59,582 nucleotides of DNA from Candidatus Omnitrophota bacterium (lineage in GTDB: Bacteria > Omnitrophota > Gorgyraeia > 1-14-0-20-64-10), in contig JACQCH010000014.1 of the NCBI GenBank assembly GCA_016201735.1, forward strand, positions 1 to 59,582, written 5' to 3'. The position numbers and the translations under genes were made by a program. How positions within the stretch are numbered: the stretch's first letter is position 1; the number at the start of each line of letters is the position of its first letter. The notes beneath the pieces are model-generated. The model made no database searches. It saw only the letters and a list, made by a program, of their open reading frames with translations, and was not told where the DNA came from. Positions 15,862 to 50,975 of this stretch are shown here, one piece after another.

Positions 15862-16001
15862 TCACCCCGCCCCTCCGGAGTATGCTCTCGGCAGAAGGGG
15901 TGGGTTTTTTAAGATTCAAGGGGGAGACAGCCGAGGGCATCTGTGCCTTCGGCACAGTGAAGCGGCCACGGCCGCTTCATGACTCCGGAGGGGCGGGGTC
16001 A
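15862..16001. mobile_element. TGA-flanked palindromic element, copy 1
   Basis: The core 15865-15998 has perfect 17-bp terminal inverted repeats (CCCCGCCCCTCCGGAGT) and is flanked by TCA direct repeats (15862-15864, 15999-16001). The inner module GACAGCCGAGGGCA..GTGCC.. with a GTGCCTTCGGCAC hairpin is shared, inverted, with copies 2 and 3. It lies between the divergent FIST and NAD kinase genes and encodes nothing. Confidence 0.85.
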
Positions 16002-39624: not shown

Positions 39625-39891
39625 CTAGCCCGAGACGATTCCGGCAAAGACCAAAAGAGTCGCCAGCCCGATGAGGAAGAAAGGAAAGCCCGCGACGATC
39701 CAGAGCGGAACCAACCGCTCGAATTTTAGATGCATGTAGAACAGGGCAACGAGAATTGCCTTGATCAGGGAGACGAACAGAATGAGCCCGACCGCCGTCG
39801 TCTTGGAGATCGGCAGCGTCGAGATGAATGTCCCCGCCGCCAACAGGACGATCAGCCAAATCCAGATGACAAAATACTTTCCGTAGCTCAC
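39625..39891 (-). CDS. Cytochrome c oxidase subunit IV (prokaryotic type)
   Basis: 88 residues, three membrane helices (YFVIWIWLIVLLAAGTFIS, AVGLILFVSLIKAILVALFYMHLKFE, LWIVAGFPFFLIGLATLLVF), with the ALFYMHLKFE signature of the COX4-pro/CtaF family. The GTG start (39889-39891) is made of the last G of repeat element copy 2 and the TG of its flanking TGA, with the element's GGAGGGG as ribosome site. Confidence 0.9.
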   Translation of the reverse strand: MSYGKYFVIWIWLIVLLAAGTFISTLPISKTTAVGLILFVSLIKAILVALFYMHLKFERLVPLWIVAGFPFFLIGLATLLVFAGIVSG

Positions 39892-40042
39892 CCCGCCCCT
39901 CCGGAGTTGCAGCTCCGCCCCTGCAGGGGTGGAGCCGCTGTGCCGAAGGCACCGATGCCCTCGGCTGTCTCTCGTTTAACAACACCATAAGAATCCAAAT
40001 TGTCACCTATGCCGAGGGCATAACTCCGGAGGGGCGGGGTCA
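39888..40042. mobile_element. TGA-flanked palindromic element, copy 2
   Basis: Core 39891-40039 with perfect 17-bp terminal inverted repeats, flanked by TCA direct repeats (39888-39890, 40040-40042). It separates coxC from coxD: the coxC TGA stop is one flank, and the coxD GTG start uses the other. The inner GTGCCGAAGGCAC..CCCTCGGCTGTC module is shared with copies 1 and 3. Confidence 0.9.
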
Positions 40043-40630
40043 TATCAGGTACAACAGCGGAAACAGAAAGATCCAGACCAAATCCACGAAGTGCCAGTAC
40101 AGCCCGGAAAGCTCCACCCGGTGCCCGTCAGATCGGAGGAAGTTCGGCCGGAACGTCAGCCATAAGATCCAAAGGTTGGCGATGATTCCCGCCAGCACGT
40201 GAAGCCCATGTAAGCCCGTCAGGGTAAAGTAGCAATCCCAGAACAGTGCTGTTCCCGGGAAATGTCCGTGGGCGAATTTGATCGAATACTCATAGCCCTT
40301 CACTCCCAAGAAGGCGGTTCCCAACAGGATCGTCAAGAGGAGGAAGAGGCGGATCTTCTTCGAGTCGGCCTGATGAACCGCGGCGACGGACATCGCCATC
40401 GTCATGGAGCTGGAAAGCAGAATGAAGGTATTCATGGCGGCCAAGGGGATCGACAGATCCTCTCCCGGACGCGGCCAGTGAGCCATTCCGGCCCGTAAGA
40501 CAATGGTGGCCCCCAGAAGCCCGGTGAAAAACATCACCTCCGAGGCCAGGAAAAGCCACATCCCCAATTTCGCCGAAGGGATTCCGGTCGAGGTGTCTCC
40601 CGTGTGAACCGAATGAGCGTCGGTCGTCAC
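40040..40630 (-). CDS. Cytochrome c oxidase subunit III
   Basis: 196 residues from GTG 40630; a longer frame to 40657 only translates the repeat. Five helices, GMWLFLASEVMFFTGLLGA (with the conserved Glu) and TGLHGLHVLAGI, HRVELSGLYWHFVDLVWIFLFPLLYL typical of subunit III. The start codon and ribosome site are supplied by element copy 3; the stop codon abuts copy 2. Inner-membrane part of the oxidase. Confidence 0.93.
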   Translation of the reverse strand: MTTDAHSVHTGDTSTGIPSAKLGMWLFLASEVMFFTGLLGATIVLRAGMAHWPRPGEDLSIPLAAMNTFILLSSSMTMAMSVAAVHQADSKKIRLFLLLTILLGTAFLGVKGYEYSIKFAHGHFPGTALFWDCYFTLTGLHGLHVLAGIIANLWILWLTFRPNFLRSDGHRVELSGLYWHFVDLVWIFLFPLLYLI

Positions 40631-40814
40631 CCCGCCCCTCCGGAGTTCTGGTTCCATCCCTTCAGGGATGGAACCGCTGTGCCGAAGGCACAGGTGCCCT
40701 CGGCTGTCTCCAATTCAAACCGGCCACCCTTTCCGAAAAACATGTGTCGCGTCTCCTTGGATCTTAAAGAACCCACTCCCTCTGCCGAGGGCACACTCCG
40801 GAGGGGCGGGGTCA
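40627..40814. mobile_element. TGA-flanked palindromic element, copy 3
   Basis: Core 40630-40811 (182 bp), 17-bp perfect terminal inverted repeats, TCA flanks at 40627-40629 and 40812-40814. It separates ctaA-ctaB (TGA stop in the flank) from coxC (GTG start). Contains GGTTCCATCCC/GGGATGGAACC and GTGCCGAAGGCAC hairpins. Confidence 0.9.
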
Positions 40815-42503
40815 TCCAATCACCTTGTCCAGTGTCATGGTAACAAAAAGAAACGGAAGGTAAAGCACCGACGCGAAGAAGAGCCGGTGAGCGGCCCGCG
40901 CCGACTTTGTCTGGGCGGTCATCAGGCCGATCGTTAAGAAGGCCAAGCTTCCCCCCAGCGCCCCGAAGAAATAAAGAGAGCCGGCCAATCCGAAGAAGCT
41001 CGGCAGCAGACTGGCCGGCACCAGGGCCGCGCAGTAAAGGGAGATCTGCCGGAAGGTCAGCCCCCCGTCCGGATCCAAGACCGGGAGCATCTTAAAACCG
41101 GCGCGCGCATAATCCTCCCGGAATTCCCACGCCAGCGCCAGGAAATGGGGCAGCTGCCAGAGGAAAAGAATCGCGAATAAGATCCAGGCCCCGACCCCCA
41201 GTTCCCCGCGGGCCGCCGCCCACCCGATCAGCGGAGGCAGGGCGCCGGGGATTGCCCCGATCAGCGTGCACAGGGCGGTGCGGGGTTTTAGAGGAGTGTA
41301 GAGGAACAGGTAAGTTCCCAGGGTGGCCGCTCCAAGAGTCCCGGCTAACGGATTTGCCCCGAAGGTTAAGATAAGAAGTCCGGCGACGGAAGCAGCGACG
41401 CCGAAAAACAGGGCCGATTCCGGCCGGATCCGCCCGGAGGGGATCGGCCGTTTGCGGGTCCGGCTCATCCGGGCGTCCGCTTCCTGTTCCAGAACCTGGT
41501 TCAGAGCGGCGGCGCCCCCGCCTAAGAAGGCGGTGCCCAGCAGAACCGAGACCCCTTTCCCCATATCCAGCGGGCCGGTCGACGCGAGGAATAAACCGAT
41601 CAGACTGGTGATCACCGCGAGACAGGTCAGGCGCGGTTTGGTCAGCTCCAGATAAACGGACAGGCCCGACGGATAATAGGAGGATTCGGAAGAATAAAAT
41701 ACCCGGACGCACAAGAGGACCGAGACGGCCAACATCAGAGCGCCGACGGCCACATGGGCCGTGGCCAGCCCAACGCCGCCTCCTCCCCGTACAAGAGTTG
41801 AGAATCCCAAGCCGATCTGAACCAGGAGGAGGCAGGGCAGCATTTTCGCGGGCCCGGCGAGGATGGAGTCTTGGCGGTGTCTTCGAAGAACGGCCGCAGC
41901 CGTCGCCCCGATGCAGCCGGCGACCGTCACAGCCCAAGCGATGTGGGCTCCGACCAGGTGCGGCCTCCAACCGGCGTGCCTTAACAACGCTCCCAAGATG
42001 AGCTGGCCGTAGACTGCCAACGCCGTCGCGAAACTTAGCTGCCGCAAGAAAACGGAAGGCCGTTCCTCGGGTTTGAGCCGCCGCGGCAGCCATTCAGGGG
42101 AAGTGACCTGCGCCAGCGCGACGATCGCGGCGAAGAAGGTTTGCCCTAAGCAGGCGTGGGCGACGGAAACCGGCAGAGGAAGCTGCCACAGGACGGTCAA
42201 TCCTCCCAGGATTCCCTGAAGGAGGACAAGCCCCAAGGCCCCGACCCCCAGCCGCCGGACCCACCGGCGGGATTCTTTCATCTGCAGCCAGACGGCAAGG
42301 ATCAGGGTCAAAAGCCCCACCGTGGCGGCGATCATCCGGTGAGTGTGCTCGAACCGGATCCCGCCGACCATCGGCGGGAAAAGGGTTCCGTAGGAAAGAG
42401 GCCAATCCGGGACCGACAACCCGGACCCGGTGGAGGTGACCAGCCCCCCCGCGATGATCAGCAGGAAGCTGACGAAGGCTGTGAAAACGGCGAGCCTATG
42501 CAT
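40812..42503 (-). CDS. Haem A synthase-protohaem IX farnesyltransferase fusion (CtaA-CtaB)
   Basis: 563 residues. Residues 1-275 are CtaA/COX15-like (GGLVTSTGSGLSVPDWPLSYG, FEHTHRMIAATVG, VSVAHACLGQ, GAHIAWAV, histidine pairs for haem). Residues 285-563 are CtaB/COX10-like (YLELTKPRLTCLAVIT, NQVLEQEADARMSRTRKRPIPSGR, YTPLKPRT, WQLPHFLALAWEFREDYARAG). CtaB farnesylates haem B to haem O, CtaA oxidises it to haem A, so the fusion joins successive steps. Its start overlaps the coxA stop by 8 bp. Confidence 0.95.
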   Translation of the reverse strand: MHRLAVFTAFVSFLLIIAGGLVTSTGSGLSVPDWPLSYGTLFPPMVGGIRFEHTHRMIAATVGLLTLILAVWLQMKESRRWVRRLGVGALGLVLLQGILGGLTVLWQLPLPVSVAHACLGQTFFAAIVALAQVTSPEWLPRRLKPEERPSVFLRQLSFATALAVYGQLILGALLRHAGWRPHLVGAHIAWAVTVAGCIGATAAAVLRRHRQDSILAGPAKMLPCLLLVQIGLGFSTLVRGGGGVGLATAHVAVGALMLAVSVLLCVRVFYSSESSYYPSGLSVYLELTKPRLTCLAVITSLIGLFLASTGPLDMGKGVSVLLGTAFLGGGAAALNQVLEQEADARMSRTRKRPIPSGRIRPESALFFGVAASVAGLLILTFGANPLAGTLGAATLGTYLFLYTPLKPRTALCTLIGAIPGALPPLIGWAAARGELGVGAWILFAILFLWQLPHFLALAWEFREDYARAGFKMLPVLDPDGGLTFRQISLYCAALVPASLLPSFFGLAGSLYFFGALGGSLAFLTIGLMTAQTKSARAAHRLFFASVLYLPFLFVTMTLDKVIG

Positions 42504-44208
42504 GCTTCTCGGTTTGCATCTGCCAATCCCGCTTCATTCCCGGAACGGAATACTCGTAAGGCCCGCAGTGGACCACCGGAGTCTTGGCGAAATTTCCATG
42601 GGGCGGCGGGGAAGGGGTTTCCCATTCCAGGGTGGTCGCCTCCCATGGATTCGGGCCGGCCTTCTCTCCCTTAAACAGACTCCGGAAGAAATTGAAGGCG
42701 AACAGCAGCTGGGTAGCCATCAGGCAGAACGCGGAAACGGACATCATCCGGTTTAACGGAGCGAAATGGACCAATCCCGCGTACTGGGTGTAGTCGTAGA
42801 TTCGCCGCGGCATCCCGCCCAATCCCAGGATGAACATCGGGAACATGACGCCGTTGAAGAACAGGAACGTCAGCCAGAAATGGGTTTTCCCCCACCGGTC
42901 GTTCATCTTCCGGCCGAACATCTTGGGGAACCAGTAGGTGATCCCGGCGAAGGCCCCGAAGAGGGATCCGCCGAACAGGACGTAATGGAGATGGCCGACG
43001 ACGAAGTAGGTGTCGTGCATGTACATATCCACCGGCGTCGAGGCGAGAAAAACCCCGGTCAATCCCCCGATGATGAACATCGAGATGAATCCCAAGGCGT
43101 GCAGCATCGGGGTGGTGAGGCGGATGCTCCCCCGCCAGAGGGTTCCCAGCCAGCTGAACACCTTCACCCCCGTGGGAACCGCCACCGCCATCGTGGAAAC
43201 CATGAAGGTCGTCCCCAGCGTCGGGTTCATTCCGGTCTGGAACATGTGATGGGCCCAAACGAGGAACCCGACCGCTCCGATCGTCACCGCCGAGTAGGAG
43301 ATCGCCTTGTAGCCGAAGATCGGCTTCCGGGAAAAGTTGGGCAGGATGTCGGAGACAAATCCCATGGCCGGGAGAATCATGATGTAGACCGCAGGATGAG
43401 AATAGAACCAGAACAGGTGCTGCCACAAAAGGGCTTGGCCTCCGGCATGGGCGAGGGGAGTTCCGTCGACGATCATCCCGGCCGGGAGGAAGAAGCTGGT
43501 TCCCAAGCAGCGGTCCAGCAGGAGAAGGATCATGGCTGCGGCCAGCACCGGGGTGGCCAGCAGGGTCAGGACCGCCGTGGTGAACATGGCCCAGATCGAG
43601 ATCGGCAGCCGGTGGAAGCTCATCCCGGGCGCCCGGTGGTTGATGATCGTCGCCACGTAATTGACCGCGCCGAAGATCGACGAGAATCCCAGGATGACGA
43701 CCCCGGCCGCCCAAAGGGTTTGCCCCGGCCCCATCGTTTCTTTCAGCCCGCTTAAAGGAGGATACGCCGTCCAGCCGGAGGCCGCGGCGCCTCCCTCGAC
43801 GAAGAAGCCGGCCAGCACCGTCGCGGCGGCGATCGGAAAGAGCCAGTACGACAGCATGTTCAGGCGGGGGAAGGCCATGTCCGGCGCCCCGATCTTTAAG
43901 GGGATCAGGTAATTGCCGAACGCTCCGACGAGCAGGGGGATCACCCCGAAGAAGATCATGATCGAGCCGTGCATGGTAAAGAGCATGTTGTAATATTCCG
44001 GCACCATGATCCCGCCGGGCATTCCGGCGGGGGCTATTTTTTCCATGAAGGGCAAGGGGCTCCCCGGCCATCCCAGCTGCCAGCGCATCAGCATCGCCAA
44101 GAGTCCACCGAAAAACATGAAGATCAGAGAAGAGAAGAGGAATTGGATTCCGATCACCTTGTGATCCGTCGAGAAGATGTACTTCCGGATGAATCCCGGG
44201 TCACTCAT
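42496..44208 (-). CDS. coxA: Cytochrome c oxidase subunit I (A2-type haem-copper oxidase)
   Basis: 570 residues. Low-spin haem ligands H80 and H408; high-spin haem H406; CuB H271, H320, H321 with the His-Tyr crosslink pair H271/Y275 (FWFYSHPAVY). The YS motif in place of the A1-type Glu marks subfamily A2. The K-channel Lys is K301. It reduces oxygen to water and pumps protons in the inner membrane. Overlaps coxB by 8 bp. Confidence 0.97.
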   Translation of the reverse strand: MSDPGFIRKYIFSTDHKVIGIQFLFSSLIFMFFGGLLAMLMRWQLGWPGSPLPFMEKIAPAGMPGGIMVPEYYNMLFTMHGSIMIFFGVIPLLVGAFGNYLIPLKIGAPDMAFPRLNMLSYWLFPIAAATVLAGFFVEGGAAASGWTAYPPLSGLKETMGPGQTLWAAGVVILGFSSIFGAVNYVATIINHRAPGMSFHRLPISIWAMFTTAVLTLLATPVLAAAMILLLLDRCLGTSFFLPAGMIVDGTPLAHAGGQALLWQHLFWFYSHPAVYIMILPAMGFVSDILPNFSRKPIFGYKAISYSAVTIGAVGFLVWAHHMFQTGMNPTLGTTFMVSTMAVAVPTGVKVFSWLGTLWRGSIRLTTPMLHALGFISMFIIGGLTGVFLASTPVDMYMHDTYFVVGHLHYVLFGGSLFGAFAGITYWFPKMFGRKMNDRWGKTHFWLTFLFFNGVMFPMFILGLGGMPRRIYDYTQYAGLVHFAPLNRMMSVSAFCLMATQLLFAFNFFRSLFKGEKAGPNPWEATTLEWETPSPPPHGNFAKTPVVHCGPYEYSVPGMKRDWQMQTEKHA

Positions 44209-44887
44209 TGGCTTTCGTCTCCGCGAGCCACTCCTGGAAATTGACGGCCGGCTCTGTGGTTACAAATCCCCGCATTCGGTAATGGCCCAGCCCGCACAGC
44301 TCCGCGCAACGGATTTCGAACTGGCCGGCCCGGGTGGCCTGCACCCAAACCTGGGTCGGCAGTCCCGGCACTGCGTCCTGTTTGACCCGGAACTCCGGGA
44401 CAAAGAAGCTGTGGATCACATCCTTCGAGAGAACCTTGATCAGGACCGGCTCTCCGACGGGCAGATGAAGCTGGTTGATCGTCGTGATGTCGTCCGCTGT
44501 GTTGAATTGGTTGTCCGGACCGGGATACCGGATGTTCCAGGCGAACTGCTCGGCCAGGATCTCCACCTGAACCGCGGGGGTCGGCATCTGTTTCGGGAAC
44601 CGGATTTCGGCCCAGACCTTTTGTGAGGCCAGGGTAAGAAAGAGCAGGATCACCGCCGGAACAATCGTCCAGATAATTTCCACTAGGGTGTTTCCGTGCA
44701 GATACGCGGCGGGTCTTCCCGGCTTGGCCCGATAGACAAGCACGAACAGCAATAAAGCCCCCTGAACCAGGAAGAAGAAGAATCCGGTGATCCAAAGGAT
44801 CGCCCAGAAGAGCCGGTCAACCTGCGGGGCGTAGGTGGAGGCGGCTTCCGGAAGAAGCATTTCAGCGGTCTGATGAAAATGGCTCAT
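44201..44887 (-). CDS. coxB: Cytochrome c oxidase subunit II (CuA)
   Basis: 228 residues: two N-terminal helices, then a cupredoxin domain with the complete CuA site H159, C194, E196, C198, H202, M205 (CAELCGLGHYRM). No C-terminal cytochrome c domain, so a separate cytochrome must donate electrons; the dihaem gene at 45855 is a candidate. The first residues MSHFHQT, including the ATG, are encoded by one arm of the inverted-repeat element 44867-44990. Confidence 0.96.
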   Translation of the reverse strand: MSHFHQTAEMLLPEAASTYAPQVDRLFWAILWITGFFFFLVQGALLLFVLVYRAKPGRPAAYLHGNTLVEIIWTIVPAVILLFLTLASQKVWAEIRFPKQMPTPAVQVEILAEQFAWNIRYPGPDNQFNTADDITTINQLHLPVGEPVLIKVLSKDVIHSFFVPEFRVKQDAVPGLPTQVWVQATRAGQFEIRCAELCGLGHYRMRGFVTTEPAVNFQEWLAETKANE

Positions 44888-44990
44888 CTGCTTCGTTGCA
44901 CGCTGCGCTCCCTTGTGTGGCGTACATGTTGACGTACGCCTCCGCGGTCGCTTGCGTGCGCCTCACATCTGAGACCATTTTGATCAGACC
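44867..44990. repeat. 124-bp inverted repeat supplying the coxB start
   Basis: Terminal arms GGTCTGATGAAAATGG and CCATTTTGATCAGACC pair with one mismatch; the centre is a perfect GGCGTAC/GTACGCC hairpin, and CGCACGCAAGCG-type stems lie between. The left arm is inside coxB and encodes its first seven residues; the right arm ends 18 bp before the cupredoxin stop. Confidence 0.85.
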
Positions 44991-45008
44991 CCGAGGTGAA
45001 TCTGCAAT

Positions 45009-45725
45009 TTACTTTGCCTTGAACGAGAAGTTGACCGTTTTGGTTTCGCCGTCGGCGACGGTGACCTGCGCGGTCTGAGTGCCCAGCTTTTCGTGCCAAG
45101 CCTCCACCGTGTAGGTTCCGGCGGGAAGCCCGTTCAAAGTGAATGAACCATTCTCGCCGGTGACTCCGAAGAACGGATGATCCAGCACGACGGCATGGGC
45201 GGCCATCCAAGGATGGACATTGCACTTGAACGGCACCGGAATCTCCACCTTGTCAAAAGTCTTAGTCGTCTTCATTCCCTTGGTCGGCTGGGCGATGTTG
45301 AACCGCTTGTTGAGTTTCGGCTGAGCGTTGATGTTGTGAAGGGTCGCGTCGGAGTTGCGGATCTCCAAGGGCTGACCCACCTGAATGCCGAAGACGTGGG
45401 GATGGTACTGGCAGCCTGCTTGGTCGATCACCACCGGTGTCGTGGGAGCGGGGAAAGTTTTTCCGGACAAGCCATCCTTCATGTAGACCACCACATTCTG
45501 CAGGGCGCCGTTATTCACCACCAGATCCTCGCTCAAAACCGGATCTTTGTGGGCGCCCAGGCAGACCGGATCCGCCGCCATCTTGATTTTCTCCCGGGAG
45601 GGGGCGGCTCCTTCAAAAGAAACCTTTCCGGAAACCGTCGCCCCGGCGGCGAAAGCCGGGTTGGCAATCCCCATCCCGAGGATTATAAAAAGAAACCCGA
45701 GCATAATCTTCCTTGACGTATTCAT
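45009..45725 (-). CDS. Exported cupredoxin with C-terminal carboxypeptidase-regulatory-like domain
   Basis: 238 residues from ATG 45725 (AAGGAG site). Signal peptide ending NPAFAAG. Residues 30-170 form a plastocyanin-like domain with candidate copper ligands His in LHNINA, Cys and His in FKCNVHPWM, and Met. Residues 180-238 are a CarboxypepD_reg-like beta sandwich (GVTGENGSFTLNGLPAGTYTVEAWHE). It is related to methylamine-utilisation-type cupredoxins and could carry electrons or copper to the oxidase directly downstream. Confidence 0.85.
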   Translation of the reverse strand: MNTSRKIMLGFLFIILGMGIANPAFAAGATVSGKVSFEGAAPSREKIKMAADPVCLGAHKDPVLSEDLVVNNGALQNVVVYMKDGLSGKTFPAPTTPVVIDQAGCQYHPHVFGIQVGQPLEIRNSDATLHNINAQPKLNKRFNIAQPTKGMKTTKTFDKVEIPVPFKCNVHPWMAAHAVVLDHPFFGVTGENGSFTLNGLPAGTYTVEAWHEKLGTQTAQVTVADGETKTVNFSFKAK

Positions 45726-45738
45726 CTTCAGTCTCCTT

Positions 45739-45857
45739 GTCATTTCGAGCAAAGCGAGAAATCTCTATTTAGATCCCTCGCCTGCTGCGCAGGCTCGGGA
45801 TGACGTTCGGCCAGCGAACTTACGGAACGAAGTGACGTAAGTTCGGGCCTCACGTCA
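45739..45857. repeat. GTCAT..ATGAC palindromic repeat cluster
   Basis: Unit 45739-45804 (GTCATTTCGAG..CTCGGGATGAC) belongs to the family at 20306-20382. It is followed by a GAACTTACG/CGTAAGTTC hairpin (45816-45844). The cluster fills the gap between the cytochrome c stop (itself inside GAAATGACG) and the cupredoxin ribosome site. Confidence 0.8.
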
Positions 45858-47222
45858 TTTCAAAACCAAATCAACCCAATTGGAATTGGCTCGGCGGCGG
45901 TCCCGCTCCCCGTTTCCGCCGTCGAAAACCACCGCTCCGAACAGGAACGGTTTCTTAGTGCTCAAGGTTACCCCTCCGGGATGGAAGGATTTAAGCGGGC
46001 GCTTGATCAGAAGCGTCCACACACCGTCTGCGTACGAATCTTGGCTGCGGCTAGAGGAAGCCGCACCACTTGTAATCTCTGAGTCGTTGGATTCAAGCAT
46101 CTGCTCGGCCTCCCGCGCCGAATCTTGTTTCGCGGACCAGCTGCATACGTCCAGCGCTGGAGCATCAGGGCCGGCCGGCCAACTCCGCAGAGAGCCGACC
46201 TGGAATTTGAGCCGACGATCCTGAAGCAGAAATAACCTCACGGCATCCGGCGGATCTTCCCGGCTCTCGTTCGGATCCTGCCAGGTCAGACGGAACAGAA
46301 CCGCATCTTCATTGTACACCGCTTGAACCCCGATTGCATTGACCGAGGTAGGTTGAATTTCTCCCTGCTGGTAGACGGTGCTGCTTAAACGCAGGTCCGT
46401 CCGGGGCGCCTCCTGCCATTTTGGATCCTCCGGGTCTGCCGGCAGGGATCCGGCCGCCTTGACCGCTTCGATCGTCCGGTTCCAATGCGGCGTTTCTTGG
46501 AGGGAATGCACGTAATAGGCCAGGTGCCAGGCATCTTCTTTTGAAGAGAGGGCGTCGGCATAGGAAGGCATCGGGGTCCCATCGATGCCGGCCATCATCC
46601 GGGCCACGATCTCTTTGACACCGGAACCGGCCCGGTAATTCCACCCCTGCGTCAGATTGGCGGCCCGGATCGGGCTGCCCCAGCTGTCGACAAGGGTCGG
46701 CGCCGACGGGCCGTTCCCCCGGCCGGCGGTGCCGTGGCAGGAAGCGCATCCCAGCTGCGCGTAAACCTCTTTCCCTTTTGCCAGGCTGGCCTCTTTGGGT
46801 CCTGGGTCTTTCCCCAGATCGATCGGTTCCGGGGCCTGGTCTTTAAAGATCGGGGAGAGACTCTTGACGTAGGCGATCAAGTTCCTGCGGGTCTCTTCCG
46901 AAAGGCGCTGGAAGTCCGGCATCCTGCTCCCGGGAAGTCCCGTCGAGAGGGTGCGGAAGAGATCCTCGTCGGTGGGAGGGGTTCCGCTGGCTGTAGTTCG
47001 GAATTTAAAGATCCCTTCGGCCAACTTGCGGGGTTTTGGGAACATCCGCTTGGCGTCGGGGCCGTCTCCGGCTCCGGTCGGCCCGTGGCACCGGGCGCAA
47101 TTGGCCTCGTAGGCATCCTTCCCGGCCGCTAAATCAGCGTCGGAAAAGGCCGGCGTTGGAGAACCCAGGAACCCAACGATTCCTAAACCGATGACCCATC
47201 TTATAGAGGAAGAAAGACACAT
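45855..47222 (-). CDS. Dihaem cytochrome c with ethylbenzene-dehydrogenase-like haem domain
   Basis: 455 residues. Signal peptide ending TPAFSDA; two c-type domains with CARCH and CASCH haem motifs and Met ligands (GSRMPDF, GTPMPSY); then about 170 residues resembling the EB_dh haem-binding/DOMON-like domain (WQEAPRTDLRL, VLFRLTWQDPNESREDPPDAVRLFLL, DGVWTLLIKRPL). Periplasmic; it probably passes electrons from an oxidoreductase to the neighbouring oxidase. It contains the 33-bp intragenic element (46042-46074), read as TSGAASSSRSQ. Confidence 0.88.
   Translation of the reverse strand: MCLSSSIRWVIGLGIVGFLGSPTPAFSDADLAAGKDAYEANCARCHGPTGAGDGPDAKRMFPKPRKLAEGIFKFRTTASGTPPTDEDLFRTLSTGLPGSRMPDFQRLSEETRRNLIAYVKSLSPIFKDQAPEPIDLGKDPGPKEASLAKGKEVYAQLGCASCHGTAGRGNGPSAPTLVDSWGSPIRAANLTQGWNYRAGSGVKEIVARMMAGIDGTPMPSYADALSSKEDAWHLAYYVHSLQETPHWNRTIEAVKAAGSLPADPEDPKWQEAPRTDLRLSSTVYQQGEIQPTSVNAIGVQAVYNEDAVLFRLTWQDPNESREDPPDAVRLFLLQDRRLKFQVGSLRSWPAGPDAPALDVCSWSAKQDSAREAEQMLESNDSEITSGAASSSRSQDSYADGVWTLLIKRPLKSFHPGGVTLSTKKPFLFGAVVFDGGNGERDRRRANSNWVDLVLK
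46042..46074. repeat. 33-bp intragenic palindromic element, copy 2
   Basis: TGGCTGCGGCTAGAGGAAGC and onward, arms TGCGGCT/AGCCGCA; 31/33 identical to 27995-28027. Here it is read from the opposite strand as TSGAASSSRSQ, so insertion orientation and frame differ. Confidence 0.85.
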
Positions 47223-47273
47223 CGAGGATTAGAATTTTCATTTTAACCGATCCCCGCCGATTTTTCTAGTTTC

Positions 47274-48533
47274 TCAACGCGCAAGGAAAGCGGTCAGCAG
47301 GCCTAAGTAGGTGCCGAGGAGGTTGCCTAAGATCGCCATCAGGAGTCCGACCGTCGCCAGTTCGGCGGAAAAGGTGGCTCCCACGATCGGAGCGGAGATC
47401 GGCCCGCCGATGTTCGCCTGGGAGGCGGTGGCGATCAGCCCCAACGGGGCCTTAAAGAGGAATCCTCCGACGATGAGCAGAACCAGCCCATGGATCAGGA
47501 TCCAGGTGATTCCGAAGGCGATAAAGACCGGTGCCTGGGCGATGGCCTGAAAATTCGCGCGGGCCCCGATCGAAGCCAGCAGCACATACAGGGCAAAGGT
47601 TCCGACCCGGGAAAGGCCCGCCTGCTCGATTCTTCTCAACGGGGTCAGGGAGAGAATCAGGGCCAGCGTGGTCACGAGCAGGATCGTCCAGCTCGACGGG
47701 TTCATCACCCATCCCATCGTCGGCAGCCGCCGGCCAATCCACTGCGCCATCACAGAAAGGGATACAGCTAGAGCGATGCCAGTTGCGAGGCCGTTGACAT
47801 TACTGGAGACAGCGCCATGGGAGGGGGCGGGGTTCGAAGACAATAGATGGCCCGAGCGGGCACGGTTCTCCGCCGGTGAGCTTTCACTCAGGCGGAGAGA
47901 GCGAGGGCCAGCTTTTAGCGAGACGACCTCGCTGGGGTCGTCTCGCGGGTCTGAGAATCCCGCTCCCTCCCGCTGGCGCTGAGTCAGGCGTTGCCACGGC
48001 TCCTGCCACGCGGAGCTCCAGATGAGGAGCGCCATCCAGGAATACGCGACGATCGCATCGACGAGGATGATCGGGGCCATCAGGGCGTCCGGAGTCCGCA
48101 GCGCCTCCTTGACCGCCAGCATGTTCGCAGAACCGCCGATCCAGCTTCCAGCGAGGGCTCCGACCGCGGCCCAGGAATCCGGCGGCAGCCATCGATGGTA
48201 CAACGCCAGTGAGGCCAGGCCTCCGAGGATCGTTCCGAAGGAGCCGGTGAGCATGAGAATGATCGCTACAGGACCCAGCCGGGCGATCCCTTTTAGGTCG
48301 GTGCCGATCAAAAGAAGGACGAGGCAGATGGGGAGGAGTTGTTGCGAGAGGGCGCTGTATAGAGGATGGCTTGAGGGCAGCCAGCCCAAGCTCGTTCCCG
48401 CCATCGGGATCATGTAGCACCAGAAGGGGAGCGGAAAAAATTTAAACGCCCAGCGGAACTTCGGCTGAACAGATAAATTCCGCAGGACAGCAACCAGGGC
48501 GATCAGGAACAGTAAGAGATGGAGAGACGTCAT
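47274..48533 (-). CDS. DUF819-family membrane transporter
   Basis: 419 residues, about ten hydrophobic segments, with DUF819 features ALAGSWIGGSANMLAVKEAL and ANIGGPISAPIVGATF. The family is an uncharacterised permease group, often beside dipeptide epimerase/peptidase genes; here the epimerase gene is directly upstream with an ATGA overlap, so muropeptide or amino-acid uptake is plausible. A loop of about 75 residues (QRQREGAGFSDPRDD...SHGAVSSN) is encoded largely by hairpins and is absent from typical members. The start ATG lies in a dispersed repeat. Confidence 0.85.
   Translation of the reverse strand: MTSLHLLLFLIALVAVLRNLSVQPKFRWAFKFFPLPFWCYMIPMAGTSLGWLPSSHPLYSALSQQLLPICLVLLLIGTDLKGIARLGPVAIILMLTGSFGTILGGLASLALYHRWLPPDSWAAVGALAGSWIGGSANMLAVKEALRTPDALMAPIILVDAIVAYSWMALLIWSSAWQEPWQRLTQRQREGAGFSDPRDDPSEVVSLKAGPRSLRLSESSPAENRARSGHLLSSNPAPSHGAVSSNVNGLATGIALAVSLSVMAQWIGRRLPTMGWVMNPSSWTILLVTTLALILSLTPLRRIEQAGLSRVGTFALYVLLASIGARANFQAIAQAPVFIAFGITWILIHGLVLLIVGGFLFKAPLGLIATASQANIGGPISAPIVGATFSAELATVGLLMAILGNLLGTYLGLLTAFLAR
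47867..47946. repeat. Hairpin pair inside the DUF819 gene
   Basis: TCTCCGCC/GGCGGAGA (47867-47898) and a perfect 11-bp stem GCGAGACGACC/GGTCGTCTCGC (47918-47946). Both are translated in frame into a cytoplasmic-loop insertion. Confidence 0.8.
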
Positions 48534-48562
48534 TGCGAAGAGCGAAACGATGAAGCAATCTC
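48529..48562. repeat. Half unit of ATTGCGAAG..CAATCTC repeat at a stop/start junction
   Basis: The plus strand reads GTCATTGCGAAGAGCGAAAC and onward to GAAGCAATCTC. On the coding strand it encodes the epimerase C-terminus EIASSFRSSQ, its TGA, and the ATG of the DUF819 gene (ATGA). Confidence 0.85.
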
Positions 48563-49627
48563 AGCGCCGCAGCCGGGCCGGGTGGGATGAACGGTCAGCC
48601 GGGCTCCTCGGGTCTCAAAACCGGGAACGCCGGGCGGGGAAACGACCAAGAGATGAGAATCCAGATCAACGAAATCAAAAACGCCCGTCCCGCAGGCGAA
48701 CTGAACGGATGCCGACAAGCCGACCGCCGACTCGGCCATGCAGCCGATCATCAGCTTCATACCGGCCCGTCTGGCCAGGCGGACGATCTTGAAGGCTCCC
48801 AGGAGCCCGCACTTGGCAAGCTTGATATTGAGGATCCGGACGGTTCTTTTGCGAATCAGTCGGCCCGCTTCGGAGACACTCCGAGCCGACTCATCGGCAG
48901 CGACGGAGATTCCCCCTTCTTTCTGAACCTGGGCGAGCCCATCCCAGTCTTCCCGGGCGACCGGCTGCTCGAACAGTCGGATCGGGAAATGGTGCCGGCG
49001 CAGGAGCCGGGCAAAGCCAATGGCTTCTTTCACGGTAAATCCTTGGTTGCCATCGACCCAGAGGGTCGCCTGTGGGGCTGCCTCGCAGACGGAGGCGATC
49101 CGCCGCAGATCCCCGTCCGGATTTTTCCCGGTCACCTTTACCTTCAGCCGCCGGAAGCCGGCCGCCTGGGCGCTGGAGGCCGCGCGGGCCGCTTGGTTTC
49201 CGGGCCAGGCCGAGATCGTCAAGCTGGTCGTGACCGATCGGCCTTTTGCTCCATAGAAGCGCCAGAGAGGAATTCCTTTCGTCCGGGTGTAGGCATCCAT
49301 CAGCGCGCACTCGAGAGCCCCAACGGCGGTCGGGTGCTCACCGGCCGCTTCCCACGCCGATTCAGCCAATCGGCGGAAGCAGAGGATGGAGGCACCGATC
49401 AACCGGCCCTCGAGCCGCCGGAGGGCGGCGGCCATCGCGGCCTGAGTTTCCGAGGGCCAGGCCAGCGACGCGGAGGCTTCTCCGATCCCGACGGTCCCGT
49501 CTTCCAGCCGGAGCCGAACGAGCAGATTCCGGCTGATCCGCTTATTCCCCAGTGCCGTCACGAACGGCCGGCGCATCGGGAGATTCAGCGGCGCCAGTTC
49601 CAGCCCGGCGATCCGCTCGCCGCTCAC
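48530..49627 (-). CDS. L-Ala-D/L-Glu-type dipeptide epimerase (enolase superfamily)
   Basis: 365 residues. The catalytic KxK pair K162/K164 (RRLKVKV), metal ligands D192 (WVDGNQGF), E220 (FEQP) and D245 (AADES), and K269 (NIKLAKCG) are all present, the dipeptide-epimerase pattern. It converts L-Ala-D-Glu from murein to L-Ala-L-Glu. The GTG start and ribosome site come from element copy 4; the last ten residues come from a second repeat. Neighbours are an NlpC/P60 peptidase (which would release the substrate) and a permease. Confidence 0.93.
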   Translation of the reverse strand: MSGERIAGLELAPLNLPMRRPFVTALGNKRISRNLLVRLRLEDGTVGIGEASASLAWPSETQAAMAAALRRLEGRLIGASILCFRRLAESAWEAAGEHPTAVGALECALMDAYTRTKGIPLWRFYGAKGRSVTTSLTISAWPGNQAARAASSAQAAGFRRLKVKVTGKNPDGDLRRIASVCEAAPQATLWVDGNQGFTVKEAIGFARLLRRHHFPIRLFEQPVAREDWDGLAQVQKEGGISVAADESARSVSEAGRLIRKRTVRILNIKLAKCGLLGAFKIVRLARRAGMKLMIGCMAESAVGLSASVQFACGTGVFDFVDLDSHLLVVSPPGVPGFETRGARLTVHPTRPGCGAEIASSFRSSQ

Positions 49628-49760
49628 CCCGCCCCTCCGTTTCTATGAAAAGCCGTTTGGCTTTTCATAGCGCCGAGCCATGGGTCGGCGCAGGCGCTGT
49701 CGAAATCCATTCTCTTGTCCTGTGCTGTTCGACAGCGCAGGAAACGGAGGGGCGGGGTCA
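49624..49760. mobile_element. TGA-flanked palindromic element, copy 4
   Basis: Core 49627-49757 (131 bp), perfect 17-bp terminal inverted repeats (CCCCGCCCCTCCGTTTC), TCA flanks at 49624-49626 and 49758-49760. The interior differs from copies 1-3: ATGAAAAGCC/GGCTTTTCAT, CGCCGA/TCGGCG and GCGCTGTCGAA/TTCGACAGCGC stems. It separates the nlpC stop from the epimerase GTG start. Confidence 0.9.
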
Positions 49761-50804
49761 TTGAGGAAGATACGTCCCGAAAAAGATCCGGCGGCCCTTC
49801 GCCTCTTTCAAACGCTCGCTGAGAGGAAGCTCTCGGACCAGCTTCCCGGTCCCGGGGCTTTCAATGATGCGGGCCTTATTTTCATAGAGATAAATCATGA
49901 CGTGGCTCACTCGTTGCGGATCCTTCGGATCGTTCAAAAAAATTAGATCTCCGGGCAAGAGCTGCTCCGGTGAGATCGGCCAGGCCTGCATCCAGATCTC
50001 ATGGGCGTCCCGCGGGATGATCATCCCGTTGGCTTGGTAGACTAACCCCGCGAGCCCCGAACAGTCGACGGCGGTGTGAGATGTTCCAGAGCCGGACAGG
50101 TTGGCGGCGGAGCGCCCGCCCCAGTAGTAAGGATCCCCGAGAAACAACCGGGCGGTCTGGACCAACCGGGCCCGCCAGCGGGCCGGATCTTCCTTCCGGA
50201 TTTCGGCCAGTTTTTCAAGCCGAGCGATCTCTTCCCCTGAAATCCAGCCAGTCGTTCCATCGAGCAGCCGCAGATTCCACCCGTTTCCGTCCGGAGTTCC
50301 CGCCAGCCGTGTCCCGATCGACAAGAGGAAGCGGGCAGGGGTGTTTGATCCCGGCTTCTCCAGCACCTTCCCCTGCTTGGCCGTCACAACCAGATTGGGA
50401 TTCCAATTCCCGGGATCCTCGATGAGATTCTCCAGTTCGATCCAGCCGGGATATCCTTCCCACCGCTTATGATGAGTCCATTCCATCTGCTCGACGGCCG
50501 AGACCCGGGCCCAGCCCTCTTTTATTTCCTGAACCTCGACGGGATCTCCGTAAAGGAGTTGGCTCTCTTCCAACGGATCCTGCTCGAGCGTCGGGCCGGC
50601 CCGTCCCGGTTCCCGCCGGAGATCCGCGACAGGAACCGCCACCCGCATCCGCCGCGGAGCCGCTTCGATCGTAGCGCTGGTTGCAGGCAACAACCAAATG
50701 AGGAAGGAGATGGCCAGTCCCACCCCTGCTCCTTTCGGGGTCCTGGCGGGGGTGGGCTGTCTCCCGGCATCGGCCTTCACTGGATGAGTTTTCACATTTA
50801 CCAT
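49758..50804 (-). CDS. Exported NlpC/P60 gamma-D-Glu endopeptidase with SH3-like domains
   Basis: 348 residues from ATG 50804 (GTG/TTG starts upstream are possible). An N-terminal hydrophobic segment (GLAISFLIWLLPATSATIEA) acts as signal peptide. Two SH3-like segments (about 50-200) bind wall peptide. The NlpC/P60 domain has AVDCSGLAGLVYQANG (catalytic Cys), VSHVMIYL (His) and RIIESPG. It should cut muropeptides between D-Glu and the diamino acid, yielding the dipeptide for the adjoining epimerase. A CCCACCCC/GGGGTGGG hairpin (50718-50761) encodes the residues just before the signal helix. Confidence 0.9.
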   Translation of the reverse strand: MVNVKTHPVKADAGRQPTPARTPKGAGVGLAISFLIWLLPATSATIEAAPRRMRVAVPVADLRREPGRAGPTLEQDPLEESQLLYGDPVEVQEIKEGWARVSAVEQMEWTHHKRWEGYPGWIELENLIEDPGNWNPNLVVTAKQGKVLEKPGSNTPARFLLSIGTRLAGTPDGNGWNLRLLDGTTGWISGEEIARLEKLAEIRKEDPARWRARLVQTARLFLGDPYYWGGRSAANLSGSGTSHTAVDCSGLAGLVYQANGMIIPRDAHEIWMQAWPISPEQLLPGDLIFLNDPKDPQRVSHVMIYLYENKARIIESPGTGKLVRELPLSERLKEAKGRRIFFGTYLPQ

Positions 50805-50975
50805 GTCAGAGTTAAGAGAGATGGCCAAACCCAAACAGGACGTTCCATGGAAAGGCGTTCATTTCAGCCTGTGTCTTCCATTCCATCAGGGCTTGAGCCT
50901 CACACGGCGGCCTGCTGGCGGGAGCCAACCCACCCCCGTCACCCCGAAGGTCTCTGTCCCGATGCATTTTTCCAT

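Follow-up and report, generated by a model that had tools for sequence, protein, structure and literature searches.

A MITE-like element that probably rebuilds the gene starts it enters in an Omnitrophota genome

A 59,582-nt stretch of DNA from a Candidatus Omnitrophota bacterium (contig JACQCH010000014.1; hereafter the window) carries four copies of a short palindromic element, and 64 intact copies of 96–503 bp each were located in the genome of this bacterium (G000). The copies are dispersed and encode no transposase. We consider it probable that they represent a non-autonomous mobile element resembling miniature inverted-repeat transposable elements (MITEs), which prefers a start codon followed by A (DTGA), duplicates the TGA and rebuilds the gene start by way of a "bridge", an open reading frame (ORF) running through the element.

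Anatomy, target site and empty sites

The surveyed genome is a 1.81-Mb draft in 67 contigs, 95% complete; intact copies were taken from 56 genome stretches and the window, and were located among the matches listed at ≤1 mismatch. Genome-wide, the 14-bp end gave 75 + 68 matches at ≤1 mismatch (3 for a reversed-pattern control), and the 13-bp end CCCCGCCCCTCCG occurs exactly eight times in the window, always at an end of one of the four elements. The ends read CCCCGCCCCTCC and are bordered by TGA. Across the 64 copies the two arms match at positions 1–17 and none beyond, which sets the inverted repeats at 17 bp. Positions 1–12 of the outer stem are invariant apart from a few substitutions, and positions 13–17 vary by subfamily, with both sides changing together. 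Terminal inverted repeats, a target duplication and short dispersed copies without a transposase, three structural features of MITEs, are thus present.

A direct TGA repeat surrounds the element in 60 of the 64 copies, and in the remaining four one flank is altered. The base preceding the left TGA is A in 37 copies, G in 15, T in nine and C in three, giving DTGA with D at −4 in 61/64; a scan of the flanks within 15–18 bp of the element revealed no further strongly conserved position. At the right end, 61/64 copies have an ORF of 60 codons or more that is opened by the terminal G of the element with the TG of the right TGA, and GGAGGGG of the element is its putative Shine-Dalgarno sequence. In 40/64 copies the left TGA is in addition the stop of an upstream ORF of 60 codons or more, which the other 24 lack. 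The shared target is therefore a start codon followed by A, with overlap of an upstream stop optional.

A downstream ORF of this length is by itself a weak criterion, satisfied by 43% of all TGA sites in the window, and for this reason the analysis also drew on upstream stops, on the residues at which Pfam matches begin and on the corresponding junctions of relatives; sites with both an upstream stop and a downstream ORF make up 3%. With genes modeled by a simple longest-ORF rule, about 10% of the gene-sparing TGA sites in the window are starts, so that the excess of the element at starts is about tenfold in proportion.

For eight gene pairs, orthologous junctions from eight genomes belonging to the same GTDB family were compared, 46 in total. 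The element is absent from all 46, and 26 of them consist of a single NTGA in which the upstream TGA overlaps the downstream start (dapA, 8/8; trpS, 5/7; gcvPB, 5/6). These empty junctions indicate that the double TGA is derived and arose by insertion. Identity between copies reaches 99.5% over 197 bp for pairs at unrelated loci, suggesting recent movement.

An earlier note, made from the sequence of this DNA, had described four elements with TCA on both sides, 17-bp terminal inverted repeats and a 3-bp TGA target duplication; the four elements were confirmed at the coordinates listed below, the repeat length was upheld in all 64 copies, and the duplication is supported by both the direct repeats and the single NTGA in relatives. 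The empty orthologous operons bear out the insertion that it had proposed. Its view that the target is a stop/start overlap suits many sites and the single NTGA of relatives, but not the 24 copies without an upstream ORF stop, where the common denominator is DTGA. Its proposal that the element re-creates stop, Shine-Dalgarno sequence and start gained genome-wide support from the 61 new GTG-started ORFs and the 40 retained stops. Within the window, this rule describes copies 2–4, where the left TGA is the stop of a CtaA–CtaB-like fusion, CoxC or an NlpC/P60 protein and GGGG + TG starts CoxC, CoxD or an MR/MLE-family enzyme. Copy 1 departs from the rule. It stands shortly before a FIST-domain gene, opens no ORF, is reversed relative to most copies, and has a stop interrupting its bridge frame. 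The features of the window are as follows.

15865..15998, minus strand: element copy 1, 134 bp; TCA at 15862-15864 and 15999-16001
39625..39891, minus strand: coxD (COX4_pro); predicted start, the element-made GTG
39888..40043, minus strand: bridge ORF of copy 2 (51 codons and the TGA), which starts at the old ATG, 40043, and ends with the TGA that the new GTG overlaps
39891..40039, minus strand: element copy 2, 149 bp, which separates coxC from coxD
39896..39902, minus strand: putative Shine-Dalgarno sequence GGAGGGG in copy 2, before the coxD GTG at 39891
40040..40630, minus strand: coxC (COX3); predicted start, the element-made GTG; stops at the TGA that forms the left flank of copy 2
40627..40815, minus strand: bridge ORF of copy 3, 62 codons plus TGA
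40630..40811, minus strand: element copy 3, 182 bp, which separates the ctaA-ctaB-like gene from coxC
40635..40641, minus strand: putative Shine-Dalgarno sequence GGAGGGG in copy 3, before the coxC GTG at 40630
40812..42503, minus strand: COX15/CtaA + UbiA/CtaB fusion gene; stop TGA 40812-40814 kept at the left end of copy 3
48530..49627, minus strand: MR/MLE-family gene (the epimerase of the earlier note); predicted start, the element-made GTG
49624..49761, minus strand: bridge ORF of copy 4, 45 codons plus TGA
49627..49757, minus strand: element copy 4, 131 bp, between the NlpC/P60 gene and the MR/MLE-family gene
49632..49638, minus strand: putative Shine-Dalgarno sequence GGAGGGG in copy 4, before the GTG at 49627
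49758..50834, minus strand: NlpC/P60 gene; stop TGA 49758-49760 kept; 5′ end uncertain

Genes downstream of the element, many of which belong to the core set, include those for GcvPA, GcvPB, DnaG, KdsB, TrpS, ITPase, GrpE, DapA, Prs and YidC, as well as for a MurD-like ligase and an ATP synthase alpha/beta-family subunit. Pfam matches begin at residues 2–5 in the GTG-started GcvPA, DnaG, KdsB, TrpS and ITPase, and at residues 9 and 8 in CoxC and CoxD, respectively. Read from the sequence, the element-made GTG is the true gene start. For CoxC the frame extends back into copy 3 as far as an ATG at 40657, which might serve as the start, but the element-end GTG, giving MTTD.., is favored because the ortholog in L046 begins ATGACAACTCAT (MTTH..). 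The closest matches of the cytochrome oxidase are Candidatus Omnitrophota metagenome-assembled genomes (best, 82% identity).

Among the GTG-started proteins following copies in relatives is one with an N-terminus typical of what we take to be peptidyl-tRNA hydrolase. The element lies upstream of pth in two genera (L140:1586-1702 in G000 and L233:1514-1668 in G007) with diverged interiors, which may reflect either an old shared event or separate hits on the same start. Besides the 64 intact copies there are one variant copy (L173:2571-2710), copies cut by contig ends, and solo ends. Solo right ends, GGAGGGGCGGGG then TGA, were observed at L164:1586, L166:1581, L218:1606, L219:1580, L240:1604 and L170:3791; each is joined in frame to the C-terminal end of a long ORF upstream, and the next gene, which in L240 has a MurG-like start, still receives a Shine-Dalgarno sequence and GTG from it. 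Domestication is a possible explanation.

Two one-ended copies (L131:1515 and L137:1544) have identical interiors that break off at one and the same CATCATGCAT boundary, which suggests a truncated subfamily. A second interspersed repeat family is present at 50731-50954 and 47823-47967 of the window and in L172, L154, L169 and L180. The elements of 287–503 bp (L148, L149, L156, L160 and L179) are composites containing this family, and a number of short elements occupy a single AAGCTGA-like site inside it, which accounts for some copies away from gene starts. At three loci (L128:4798-4993, L168:1544-1740 and L174:1562-1759), TATAAT stands a few bases 5′ of the old start codon, as expected for leaderless transcripts there.

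Bridge frame and cloverleaf fold

The follow-up brought out two features absent from the earlier note, the bridge ORF and a three-armed cloverleaf. From the old NTG the bridge reads M-T-P-P-L ... G-G-A-G-stop, the stop being the right TGA that overlaps the new GTG. To end exactly there, the element must have a length of 2 mod 3; this is so in 48/64 copies, and 46/64, including those of 464 and 503 bp, are open to the exact end. In relatives, whose copies have diverged interiors, 18/20 have lengths of 2 mod 3 and 16/20 are open. Counted over distinct length classes, the proportion is 24/38 (p = 1.6e-4). The bridge frame is stop-free in 49 of the 64 copies, and the other two sense frames in nine and 25. 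Changes in the bridge peptide (174 nonsynonymous, 77 synonymous) are near the neutral expectation, and new stops account for 2/253 changes vs. about 4% expected. What selection maintains thus appears to be an open frame of suitable length, with the peptide itself unconserved.

Exactly three arms on the outer stem were predicted in 77/84 copies vs. about one-fifth of shuffles, and the predicted stability of the interior is on average 5.9 standard deviations above dinucleotide shuffles. In the predicted fold the GGAGGGG Shine-Dalgarno sequence sits in the outer 17-bp stem, paired with CCCCTCC of the left end. Such pairing would hinder ribosomes from starting directly at the new GTG unless one coming along the bridge opened the stem.

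We propose that insertion at DTGA duplicates the TGA and would leave the old start codon NTG on the left, where it now opens the bridge. The last G of the element with the duplicated TG would form the new GTG, GGAGGGG would act as its ribosome site, and any upstream stop that overlapped the target start would persist unchanged. Ribosomes entering at the old start would translate the bridge, melt the stem hiding the new Shine-Dalgarno sequence, halt at the TGA and begin anew on the GTG that overlaps it (−4 coupling). Through such coupling, insertion could be nearly neutral even in essential operons.

Several points weigh against this proposal. Frame-breaking lengths occur in 16/64 copies, clustered in a few subfamilies, and genes still follow them; the bridge is favored, not essential. 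A Shine-Dalgarno-like motif precedes the old start in only 24/64 copies. Copies share ancestry, so that per-copy p-values overstate independence, and the open frames may owe something to base composition and to the shared cloverleaf. A transposase search of G000 covering Y1, RVT_1 and DDE_Tnp_1 (other families were not searched) found no enzyme with the ends of the element.

A stronger version of the proposal holds that the cloverleaf is recognized by its structure, actively finds start sites and has spread as a self-contained coupling cassette in the core operons of one family. The concerted arm variation, a three-arm fold kept despite divergence, the start excess over neutral intergenic TGA and a bias in orientation would all be expected under it: 55/57 clustered copies have the same orientation relative to TGA despite the symmetric ends, and frame selection alone does not explain this, since about half of the copies would stay open in frame if flipped. 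We hold this version only tentatively, as somewhat less probable than not.

In an alternative that we think unlikely, the bridge is incidental, and a mobile element merely brings an independent, strong Shine-Dalgarno sequence and GTG at which ribosomes initiate directly. The frame-breaking copies ahead of genes would fit, as would the solo right ends, which without the rest of the element still give ORFs a Shine-Dalgarno sequence and GTG. However, most solo right ends close a long in-frame upstream ORF, so translating ribosomes reach them. The excess of 2 mod 3 extends over many length classes and into relatives, stops are depleted, and the Shine-Dalgarno sequence lies inside the stem of the predicted fold, all of which count against this alternative.

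Mobility and further alternatives

Ends of the element type were found in five of nine family members, strong in G000, G003, G007 and G008 and weak in G001, as clear multi-copy sets or scattered matches. Other families of the class gave sporadic end matches only, viral contigs gave 13 single matches that we took as chance, and 898 kb of other genomes, scanned for inverted repeats of any kind with TGA flanks, yielded none. Among the located end pairs from the matches listed, in a draft where some copies are cut at contig ends, none belongs to an autonomous element. The draft assembly may lack the mobilizing enzyme.

Two candidates were rejected. A 1.8-kb stretch between two elements on contig C57 (L172), considered as an autonomous partner, holds type II secretion-like genes and no transposase. 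The sole DDE_Tnp_1 gene of G000, considered as the mobilizer, has an in-frame stop and unrelated inverted repeats; it belongs to an insertion sequence (IS) remnant at L321:1370-2571 with 37-nt imperfect inverted repeats, unlike the element ends.

Selection alone could in principle create the distribution if the element entered any TGA and only harmless copies survived, because intragenic insertions would be purged and the end of the inverted repeat happens to be harmless at starts. Intergenic TGA sites should be harmless as well, and under the longest-ORF rule their ratio to start TGA sites in the window is about 9:1, yet off-start copies number only 3/64. With 61/64 copies at starts vs. about 10% of permissive sites, uniform insertion followed by loss of intragenic copies is insufficient, and we judge this explanation improbable.

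More doubtful still is a mechanism acting on single strands (HUH/Y1, IS200/IS605-like or REP-like), with TGA as both target and terminus and no staggered-cut duplication. Sequence alone cannot tell a TGA terminus from a 3-bp duplication, and the folded palindromic form and the near-uniform orientation would suit such a mechanism. Against it, no Y1 transposase (PF01797), as would accompany repetitive extragenic palindromic (REP) sequences with a REP-associated tyrosine transposase (RAYT), was found in the 95%-complete genome; the ends pair mutually and not as separate end hairpins, and some copies in relatives have reversed arm order. Nor does G000 contain a reverse transcriptase (PF00078, RVT_1), as expected for a group II intron derivative.

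An immobile ancestral regulatory RNA leader (attenuator or riboswitch-like) would account for a stable cloverleaf ahead of genes, but this reading is already largely refuted, and its probability is very small, given functionally unrelated downstream genes, 46/46 relatives' junctions without the element, near-identical copies at different loci, and an Rfam search of ten sampled loci in which the elements had no match (a tRNA and a sub-threshold Y RNA-like match lay elsewhere).

Significance and relation to known elements

Under the favored reading of a start-rebuilding mobile element, this is a clear case of an insertion made tolerable in essential operons by replacement of the start signal that it destroys. 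About 3–4% of the genes in the 1.8-Mb genome would use an element-made GTG and ribosome site, as estimated from the 61 starts. The copies offer natural repeated experiments on translational coupling, solo ends surviving as ribosome sites show a path to domestication, and N-termini annotated inside elements will be wrong.

IS5-family elements of the IS1031/IS427 type make TNA duplications, which would cover TGA/TCA; in contrast, TGA alone is seen here, and the inverted repeats of the sole DDE_Tnp_1 gene found are unrelated. REP sequences and bacterial interspersed mosaic elements (BIMEs) are likewise palindromic, extragenic and of high copy number, but the present genome has no Y1 transposase of the RAYT kind, the ends pair across the whole element, and TGA flanks it. 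The comparison with known repeats in the earlier note was limited to REP/BIME and enterobacterial repetitive intergenic consensus (ERIC) sequences, and missed the similar logic of mycobacterial interspersed repetitive units (MIRUs).

With MITEs and Chunjie of Geobacter uraniireducens the element shares short length, absence of transposase coding, terminal inverted and direct repeats, many copies and a stable fold. The title of the report on Chunjie describes insertion into an operon whose structure is left undisturbed (reference 11 in PMC10969869). A literature search, incomplete in coverage, found no MITE reported as systematically landing on start codons with a Shine-Dalgarno sequence, GTG and bridge ORF.

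MIRUs are not known to have dyad symmetry or terminal inverted repeats, and their target is reportedly DTGA. According to a 2025 review, they seem mobile, insert at start codons and bring an internal ORF that is coupled to the gene at −4, which likely limits the effect on expression (PMC12548453). Start-codon insertion, an internal ORF open to −4 nt of the gene, and DTGA are common to both, the coupling here being predicted from sequence. By description, the present element differs from MIRUs in its 17-bp inverted repeats, TGA duplication, cloverleaf and Omnitrophota host. A counterpart of the MIRU strategy thus exists in a distant phylum, and the element concerned is of quite different anatomy: it works like a MIRU and, an autonomous partner apart, is built like a MITE.
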